Assembly (NCBI RefSeq): GCF_003003795.1
Contig: NZ_PVWK01000017.1
Coordinates: 1 to 64,000 of the forward strand
Reading direction: 5' to 3'
DNA from: Stenomitos frigidus ULC18
Lineage (GTDB): Bacteria; Cyanobacteriota; Cyanobacteriia; Leptolyngbyales; Leptolyngbyaceae
DNA: 64,000 nucleotides
Positions 23,729-25,180 of the stretch are shown here, in pieces. The translations under genes were made by a program, and so were the position numbers. The notes beneath the pieces are model-generated. The model saw only the letters and a list, made by a program, of their open reading frames with translations, made no database searches and was not told the origin of the DNA. Position 1 is the stretch's first letter, and every line of letters begins with the position of its first letter.

Positions 23729-25180
23729 TTAAGTAAGACTCTTTGGCGTGATCGCCCAACCTTCGTGGTCAAAAAGATGGATTTTGTCAGGTGTGTGTGA
23801 GAGCCAAAGTTGCTCACCGATACGGACTGGGCGATCGGGTTCAATGCGTGCCTGTAGCAACGCTGTCTCGACACTGGCATCCACGAGACTCAAGGCAAGA
23901 TAGGTTTCGCTGCCCAGGGCTTCTACCAGTTCCACCTGTACGGGCAGGTTTTTCGGTGCGGCAGCGCTGATGTTGAAGTGCTCTGGACGAATGCCCAGCG
24001 TCAGCGTTTGACCATCGTAGGGTTTGAGTACATCTGCCCACACTTCTGGTAGCGTCAGGCGAAATTGAGGATGGGTAAGAAGCAACGGTGCTTTGAATTG
24101 AACTGCCAGGAAATTCATGGGAGGCGAACCAATAAATTCCGCAACAAAGCGATTGGCAGGACGGTTATACAACTCCAGCGGTGAGGCGATTTGCTGAATT
24201 TGTCCGGCGTTCATGACCGCAATGCGATCGCCCATCGTCATCGCCTCTGTTTGATCATGGGTGACATAAATCGTTGTTGTTCCTAACTGCCGCTGAAGCT
24301 TGACGATTTGTGATCGCGTCTCTGCCCGCAATTTGGCGTCCAGATTCGACAGCGGTTCATCCATCAAAAAAACCTGCGGGTTCCGCGCCATAGCACGCCC
24401 CAGAGCCACCCGCTGCTTTTGTCCGCCTGAAAGTTGCTTGGGTAGCCGATTCAGCAAGGGTTCAATTTGCAGAATTTGCGCCACCGACCGTACCTGCTGA
24501 TCGATCGATCGTTCTCGCTCTGACCGGAACCGCAATCCTTTCGGCAGTTTACGAGTCGTTTCAATGAGAAGATTCTCAGCCCAGATGGGAAGTGAGGAGT
24601 GAGGTGAGAGGTGAGAGGTGAGAGAGTTTTGAGTTTTGAGTGTCGAGTTTTGAGTTAAAGCTGCTGACTGCTGACTGCTGACCGCTGACCGCTGACTGCT
24701 GACCGCTGACCGCTGACCGCTGACCGCTGACTGCTGACTACCTACCTTCGTCCGTCTCAGCCCAAACGCCAGATTCTCATAGACCGTCATATGCGGATAC
24801 AGAGCGTAGTTCTGAAACACCATCGCAATGTCACGCTCTTTGGGTGGAAGCTCATTGACAAGGCGATCGCCCACGTAGATATTGCCCCCAGTCAATTCTT
24901 CCAAGCCAGCAATCAGCCGTAACAGGGTGCTTTTGCCGCAGCCAGAGGGACCCACCAGCACCATGAATTCACCGTCTGCGATCGTCAGGTTGATGGCACG
25001 GAGAACGCTGGTGGCGTGCGATCGTTTTGCTTTGTCTTTCGTTGCCGTTGTACCGCTGTTGCCGAGTGGCGTTAGCCATGGCTCTGCTGCAACAGGCGCC
25101 ACCGGCTCACCCTGACGACCCGAAAAGCTTTTGTAGATATTTTCAAGAACAACCTGTGCCACGACAGTTCCTATCTCCAT
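23729..25180 (-). CDS. ABC transporter ATP-binding protein, MalK/UgpC/GgtA type
   Basis: ATPase of a sugar or osmolyte importer. Walker A GPSGCGKST (77-85), Q-loop VFQNYALYP, signature LSGGQKQR (250-257), Walker B VFLMDEPLSNLDAKLR and His switch YVTHDQTEAM; the C-terminal regulatory OB region contains LGIRPEH. MalK-type subunits usually have ~370 aa; this one has 483 because of an N-terminal loop (about 22-56) and a ~90-residue insertion (146-235) before the helical signature region. Residues 147-195 are encoded by heptamer repeats and read SAVSGQRSAVSSQRSAVSSQ. ATG 25180; a GTG at 25162 (VAQVVLENIYKSF) is an alternative start. No permease genes adjoin it. Confidence 0.9.
   Translation of the reverse strand: MEIGTVVAQVVLENIYKSFSGRQGEPVAPVAAEPWLTPLGNSGTTATKDKAKRSHATSVLRAINLTIADGEFMVLVGPSGCGKSTLLRLIAGLEELTGGNIYVGDRLVNELPPKERDIAMVFQNYALYPHMTVYENLAFGLRRTKVGSQQSAVSGQRSAVSSQRSAVSSQQSAALTQNSTLKTQNSLTSHLSPHSSLPIWAENLLIETTRKLPKGLRFRSERERSIDQQVRSVAQILQIEPLLNRLPKQLSGGQKQRVALGRAMARNPQVFLMDEPLSNLDAKLRAETRSQIVKLQRQLGTTTIYVTHDQTEAMTMGDRIAVMNAGQIQQIASPLELYNRPANRFVAEFIGSPPMNFLAVQFKAPLLLTHPQFRLTLPEVWADVLKPYDGQTLTLGIRPEHFNISAAAPKNLPVQVELVEALGSETYLALSLVDASVETALLQARIEPDRPVRIGEQLWLSHTPDKIHLFDHEGWAITPKSLT
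24591..24740. repeat. Repeat cluster inserted in frame in the ABC ATPase gene
   Basis: Contains GAGAGGTGA tandem units, GAGTTTTGAGTTTTGAG units and about eleven GCTGACT/GCTGACC heptamers in tandem, i.e. all three intergenic families in their normal order. The insertion keeps the frame of the transporter gene. Confidence 0.9.

Follow-up and report, generated by a model that had tools for sequence, protein, structure and literature searches.

Heptanucleotide repeats in frame within an ABC transporter ATPase gene and other genes of the cyanobacterium Stenomitos frigidus ULC18

Introduction

How does a block of tandem heptanucleotides come to lie in frame within the gene of a transporter ATPase, and what becomes of it there? 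The question is raised by a gene of Stenomitos frigidus ULC18. It lies in the opening 64 kb of contig C80, a stretch that we refer to as the window and that belongs to a 6.98-Mb draft genome of 167 contigs. A preliminary description of this stretch placed three repeat families in frame between the Q-loop and the signature motif of a MalK-type ATPase, at a point where related proteins were thought to have a short helix, and proposed that intergenic repeats can spread into genes and be tolerated as protein linkers.

Short tandemly repeated repetitive sequences, or STRR, is the name in use for the heptanucleotide repeats of cyanobacteria, which also occur within the gene for RNase P RNA and in an intron of a tRNA. 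Elhai et al. have reportedly described small mobile repeats in cyanobacteria. Here we describe the repeats within the ATPase gene, the same site in its relatives, and the distribution of similar arrays in the remainder of the genome.

Results

The ATPase gene and its repeat-built linker

The MalK/UgpC-type ABC transporter ATPase gene lies at 23729..25180 on the minus strand, and its frame of 483 codons is open throughout, unbroken by the repeats. The product scores 437.7 bits against NCBIfam PRK11650, for which the curated cut-off is 432, matches the Pfam families ABC_tran, OB_MalK and TOBE_2, and has its nearest named homologues in cyanobacteria. The Walker A motif GPSGCGKST (residues 77-85; 24926..24952, minus strand) falls mostly in invariant alignment columns; the Q-loop glutamine, Q123, lies upstream of the linker, and the ABC signature LSGGQ (residues 250-254; 24419..24433, minus strand), placed by sequence and alignment, lies downstream of it. 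The protein thus has the Walker A, Q-loop, signature, OB and TOBE elements and the fold of MalK/UgpC-type ATPases of known structure (PDB 1v43, 1g29 and 1q12), and from its sequence the gene, repeat linker included, looks functional.

The linker comprises residues ~147-198 (24587..24742, minus strand) and differs from species to species at the site. Three heptad arrays make it up, all on the minus strand and here given as read on the coding strand: an (RGTCAGC)n array of ~11 copies at 24661..24739, found by both TRF and our array scan and encoding the peptide SAVSGQR; an AAAACTC-type array at 24624..24656 (TRF period 7, 84% matches; GAGTTTT units on the plus strand), encoding TQNSTLKTQNS; and a TCACCTC-type array at 24591..24624, found by the array scan (GAGGTGA-type units on the plus strand), encoding SHLSPHS. 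For the first of these, TRF reported GCTGACY units on the plus strand at 24663-24738 with a period of 7, 10.9 copies and 94% matches. The peptide of the three arrays, SQQSAVSGQRSAV.../TQNSTLKTQNS/LTSHLSPHSS, runs between Q123 and LSGGQ. These results bear out the original account of ~150 bp of three heptad families at 24591-24740, placed between the Q-loop and the signature, with a seven-base unit that yields a seven-residue peptide.

The suggested position at a short helix needs two refinements. Between the positions aligned to query residues 145 and 223 the cyanobacterial ATPase has 77 residues and 1v43 has only 2, and the final part of the extra length is not repeat: ~52 residues are repeat-coded, and ~24 (residues 199-222; 24515..24586, minus strand) are non-repetitive, absent from 1v43 and common to repeat-free cyanobacterial homologues. 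In an AlphaFold2 model built from a 21-sequence alignment the mean pLDDT is 83.2; residues 161-195 fall below 50 and residues 147-157 are modelled as the end of a helix with pLDDT of ~53-69. The model resembles MalK-type structures (TM-scores by target length of 0.92 with 4tqu and 0.91 with 1v43). The hydrophilic linker that the repeats encode is mostly disordered in the predicted structure, with the remainder of the protein folding like MalK. A second stretch with pLDDT below 50, residues 31-52 (window 25025-25090), is non-repetitive by eye.

The same site in related ATPase genes

The corresponding site was compared in 40 homologues, the gene itself included, using a scorer of period-7 repetition; the count includes L048, where the site is probably mis-set (109 nt, which is not a multiple of 3). 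Heptad arrays are present in 11 of the 40, and another short period in one. Within the genus an array is found in six of seven genomes, G003 being without, and no two are alike; outside the genus arrays occur in G010, G019, G021, G023 and a Microcoleus sp. (L040). In the other 29 homologues the loop is non-repetitive and usually shorter, L020 with 171 nt being an exception. Some units recur, with RGTCAGC present here and in G001, and GGGAGTC in G001, G002, G004 and G006; others are AGGCAGG in G005 and CACACCT in G002. Insert lengths range from 138 to 216 nt in the genus and from 54 to 237 nt among the homologues scanned. The sequence at this position thus varies from homologue to homologue, and the insert is not a conserved domain.

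The sequences that flank the array behave quite differently from the array itself. Against eight relatives, dN is 0.06-0.21 and dS 0.7-2.2 upstream, and dN is 0.05-0.15 and dS 0.9-2.4 or saturated downstream, whereas within the array, in those parts that permit alignment, dN is 0.3-0.7. These values support strong purifying selection on both flanks. A pseudogene or an assembly artefact, as might be feared for repeats, which are prone to misassembly, in a draft of 167 contigs, is scarcely credible given this constraint and given that arrays are found at the site in several independent assemblies, including those of G010 (three contigs) and G019 (a single contig).

Occupation of the site in six of seven same-genus genomes, despite a dS in the flanks of ~0.7-2.4, could be taken to signify that the linker has a selected role, for example in ATPase regulation or in protein-protein contact. 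We regard this as unlikely, as neither the sequence, the length nor the unit type of the linker is conserved, 29 of the 40 homologues, G003 among them, are without arrays, the linker is mostly disordered in the model, and the same array types are present in unrelated enzymes.

Other genes, and the keeping of frame

Five further genes, encoding MutS, CimA, PheT, RecF and PurH, were chosen for their arrays in the source genome and compared with ten relatives; the sites in CimA L177, RecF L198 and PurH L208 were not located by pattern. Arrays are present in 7/10 relatives for MutS, 4/10 for PheT and 7 of the 9 sites found for CimA, and, with the source genome included, at 6/10 sites for RecF and 3/10 for PurH (2/9 PurH relatives). 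Judged from these sequences the five genes behave like the ATPase gene, to differing degrees. The same scorer set to periods of 5, 6, 8, 9 and 10 found arrays in 1/40 ATPase genes, 2/10 for MutS, 0/9 for CimA and 0/10 for PheT. The mismatch repair gene itself, mutS (G000:C92:49602-52604), has its array just before the Walker A motif, as have those of seven of the ten relatives. In the MutS of G010 (L167) the frame breaks a few codons past the array, at the Walker A region, perhaps through a sequencing indel. Four CimA matches have one stop each, and in each of them an ORF nonetheless spans the array site.

The array is in frame in 34 of 35 array-bearing alleles (11 of the ATPase, 7 of MutS, 7 of CimA, 4 of PheT and 6 of RecF), the last having been scanned in one frame only, with stop-free matches in its ten relatives. 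The corresponding probability of 1.4e-15 is naive, because the alleles are related. That the repeats are cut from the mRNA or skipped by ribosomes, and never appear in protein, is highly improbable in view of this count, as an excised or bypassed element would have no need to be in frame.

The single exception is the ATPase gene of G004 (L021, G004:C47), where the array is shifted by one base from the reading frame and directly followed by a stop, which is compatible with either a one-unit slip or an assembly error. A change of one unit is what would be expected of a phase-variable switch, in which gain or loss of 7 bp turns the gene off, as at heptanucleotide phase-variable loci such as HMW1A of Haemophilus influenzae (PMC8262952). 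Such loci likewise have 7-bp tandem units of which one suffices to shift the frame. Those loci switch expression, whereas the genes described here keep their frame, with out-of-frame arrays in 1/11 ATPase alleles and 1/35 over the five genes; moreover, the G004 assembly is fragmented (~600 contigs) and the ten identified array genes are mostly housekeeping genes. We therefore consider phase variation very unlikely.

Heptad arrays across the genome

The wider distribution of arrays was examined in 684 kb of the genome, composed of the window and 31 contiguous stretches of 20 kb, using one simple array scorer. There are 110 tandem arrays with a period of 7, whereas the other periods between 4 and 13 have 0-2 apiece, so that heptads occur beyond what chance would give; period 14, a multiple of 7, gave 70 arrays and period 15 gave six. 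The commonest units are AAAACTC (29 arrays), ACCGCTG (17) and ACACCCC (7). When 40 of 534 first-look candidates were scored, the 150-bp stretch of the ATPase gene had at least 53 matching places in the genome that it comes from, its own position among them.

Merging arrays no more than 300 bp apart gives 76 events, of which 28 lie inside ORFs of at least 200 aa, 35 are intergenic and 13 are at edges or overlapping. Internal arrays are thus present in 22 of 370 such ORFs, the gene calls being crude (the longest ORFs that do not overlap). Among the 22, C80:97138-97974 seems spurious on inspection by eye, and in C92:161376-162611 the array is near the start. The implication in the earlier account of a single insertion in a single gene is not sustained by these figures or by the site comparison, which reveals a hypervariable loop filled by differing arrays in six of seven same-genus genomes. 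With 509 kb in ORFs of at least 200 aa and 111 kb noncoding, and with edge events excluded, event density is ~0.055/kb inside ORFs and ~0.32/kb between genes. Density inside ORFs is therefore about one sixth of that outside, which may reflect the combined action of two filters, 1/2 for strand and 1/3 for frame, or may be coincidence.

Ten of the 22 ORFs were chosen as recognizable, and all ten pass NCBIfam curated cut-offs; these are MutS, citramalate synthase (CimA), PheT, PurH, RecF, an ABC-F protein, AnmK, Fpg, RsmG and ThiO. Other array genes have been named only by eye, as SbcC, ClpC-like, SNF2 and so on. The purH gene (2674..4260, minus strand; PRK00881, 739.9 bits against a cut-off of 402) likewise has an in-frame array in its interior, and so joins the ATPase gene as the second such case in the window; the array is of GGTCAGC type at 3641..3667 (minus strand, by array scan) and encodes SVVSGQRSA. 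Among 21 ORFs, the residues S, Q, P, T, G, N, K, R, E and H account for 79.1% of 628 array residues as against 52.3% elsewhere. Some unit peptides, SGQRSAV and LKTQNSK for instance, appear repeatedly.

Several other repeats were noted in passing. TRF identified further heptad arrays in the window, GAGGTGA at 19780-19804, AGCTGAT at 22126-22164 and AGTTTTG at 49808-49839, together with two non-heptad tandem repeats, of 31 bp in 2 copies at 47323-47385 and of 16 bp in 3 copies at 47888-47936. A 1505-aa ORF that is TPR-like by eye (G000:C73:32951-37468, minus strand) has six internal heptad clusters, with the same type of linker at equivalent places of its two halves. Nested in AAAACTC arrays is a segment of ~24-38 nt with AGCG/GCGCT-type ends, seen in G000:C73 near 33105 (minus strand) and 55037, in L013 and in L164. 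In some genes it forms part of the open frame, as in SSVAAQRATQNS; it is maybe a small mobile repeat.

Order and strand of the arrays

As first proposed for the ATPase gene, different units follow one another in the order that they have between genes. On one strand this order is GGTCAGC, CTCAAAA and CACCCCA types, which holds for 22 of 23 pair observations in genes and for 8 of 13 intergenic pairs; the other five have their members on opposite strands, so that all eight same-strand intergenic pairs agree. A triplex motif (PMC4666352) was considered on account of the G-rich and C-rich sides of AAAACTC elements. Outside genes the upstream side is G-rich in 37/50 elements and the downstream side C-rich in 44/50; inside genes the C-rich side holds (20/23) and the G-rich side does not (10/23).

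As 7 leaves a remainder of 1 when divided by 3, a perfect heptad array encodes the same heptapeptide in all three frames, and a strand without stops is therefore open whatever the phase in which the array is inserted; for the same reason the frame downstream is kept only by net changes of three units, or 21 bp. Judged by unit consensus, the coding strand is stop-free in all 45 in-gene arrays, comprising 30 with units open on one strand, every one of them in the open orientation, and 15 with units open on both, a rule that is partly circular, since an open frame was what placed an array in a gene. The 65 arrays outside genes include 53 with units open on one strand, six on both and six on neither. 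Units open on both strands are thus commoner inside genes (15/45 against 6/65; Fisher test of both- against one-open, p = 0.0059), with the same element of circularity, and the absence of neither-open units there (0/45 against 6/65, p = 0.079) is only suggestive.

Resemblance of inserts within a genome

We compared 64 inserts from six genes in 11 genomes, two being missing, with a null distribution obtained by shuffling genome labels within genes. Different genes of one genome have a 7-mer similarity of 0.105, whereas the null gives 0.064 (sd 0.006), and the observed value was reached in 0/2000 permutations. The genes of the source genome had been picked for having arrays, and the comparison was accordingly also run with that genome left out, giving 0.078 against 0.055 (1/2000); a control with codon-shuffled inserts gave 145/1000. 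Inserts of one gene are also more alike between genomes (0.096) than are those of different genes of different genomes (0.060), and descent therefore plays a part. Seven genomes were considered singly, and G002 is the exception among them, with 0.057 within the genome against 0.065 to others.

Matches of individual inserts follow the same pattern. With 40 candidates scored for each genome, the source-genome insert has at least 53 matches at E <= 1e-15 in G001, the other member of the genus whose ATPase array has the RGTCAGC unit, whereas eight further genomes have 0-4 matches each. The strongest matches of the G005 insert lie in G005 itself. Both patterns are in line with rewriting of the site from a genome's own repeat pool, as far as these sequences can indicate.

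Slippage can expand tandem heptads, and in many homologues from cyanobacteria the ATPase site is occupied by a variable loop without repeats, so that arrays might instead be born in place, in loops that were already hypervariable and of low complexity, without being imported. We think this rather unlikely, albeit less so than the other alternatives considered above, as it does not account for units that match the dispersed families of the host genome, for the likeness of inserts in unrelated genes within one genome, or for composites of several families that follow the order of same-strand intergenic copies.

Discussion

The explanation that we favour, and consider probable, is that dispersed heptads enter loops, where those without stops that keep the frame survive, to be rewritten from the repeat pool of the genome. 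Arrays would enter genes when recombination or gap repair draws on the repeats of the genome, or when a seed expands by slippage. The survivors would be the stop-free ones, in frame and in a loop; they would subsequently grow, shrink and be overwritten from the host repeat pool, and old arrays would decay into ordinary-looking linkers. The linker need have no function of its own and would merely be tolerated by the protein. The proposal in the preliminary description of repeats that spread into genes is retained here to the extent that dispersed heptads are found in frame in an apparently functional gene, where they encode a linker that is hydrophilic and, in the predicted structure, mostly disordered.

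The linker stretch is a composite of STRR-type heptads, where STRR denotes the kind of repeat and not the original unit consensus. In common with STRRs, the repeats described here have 7-bp tandem units, are dispersed, and are mostly intergenic with an intragenic fraction. In Nostoc PCC 7120, GGGGAYT heptad arrays are 68% intergenic and under-represented in coding regions (PMC4692102); the units there are of other sequence, and here several families form composites. In-frame coding, a strand rule and species-specific rewriting are not treated in the parts of that paper that were consulted.

A second relevant comparison is with Rickettsia and Wolbachia, whose housekeeping genes hold dispersed DNA of a selfish type, inserted in frame and typically where the protein is non-structured, as related in portions of PMC10969869 and PMC2996958. 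In-frame insertion into housekeeping genes is common to the heptads, the Rickettsia palindromic elements (RPEs) and the protein-coding palindromes of Wolbachia (Ogata et al.). As these partial accounts have it, an RPE is a palindrome of ~150 bp with a conserved peptide, whereas the heptads are tandem, form no palindrome and have a peptide set by the unit type; also unlike RPEs, the same gene site is filled differently between species. A peptide conserved throughout a family, as in RPEs, was not found, the peptides at one site differing between species. No mechanism of mobility came to light. An RNA hairpin as its basis was rejected for the ATPase insert (RNA fold z of -0.57), in which a search for inverted repeats found only one 10-nt pair at 90%, outside the repeat units. 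Terminal inverted repeats, as expected of a MITE, were not found at the ATPase insert. A search of plasmid records for the ATPase repeat with the low-complexity filter on gave no match.

Heptad repeats in cyanobacteria and in-frame dispersed elements in Rickettsia and Wolbachia are thus already known, from the parts of the literature cited above. A published account of in-frame heptads in cyanobacterial genes was not found in one open-access library, and nor, in the same library, was the combination of fixed sites, a strand rule and species-wise rewriting.

A broader reading, which we put forward tentatively as a real possibility that falls somewhat short of an even chance, is that the heptad pool acts as a genome-wide writer of loops. 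About 6% of sizeable genes would then contain an array, typically in a loop and repeatedly overwritten, so that genes and intergenic DNA would evolve in concert, unrelated enzymes of one species would come to share linkers, and old arrays would turn into new and unique protein sequence. If this is true, a free-living bacterium would have its housekeeping genes invaded by dispersed DNA much as Rickettsia has, by a different and simple route. New disordered linkers would have an origin open to testing, and there would be a gauge of how much protein sequence is written by repeats; the finding would also caution against reading intragenic repeats in these genomes as domains.
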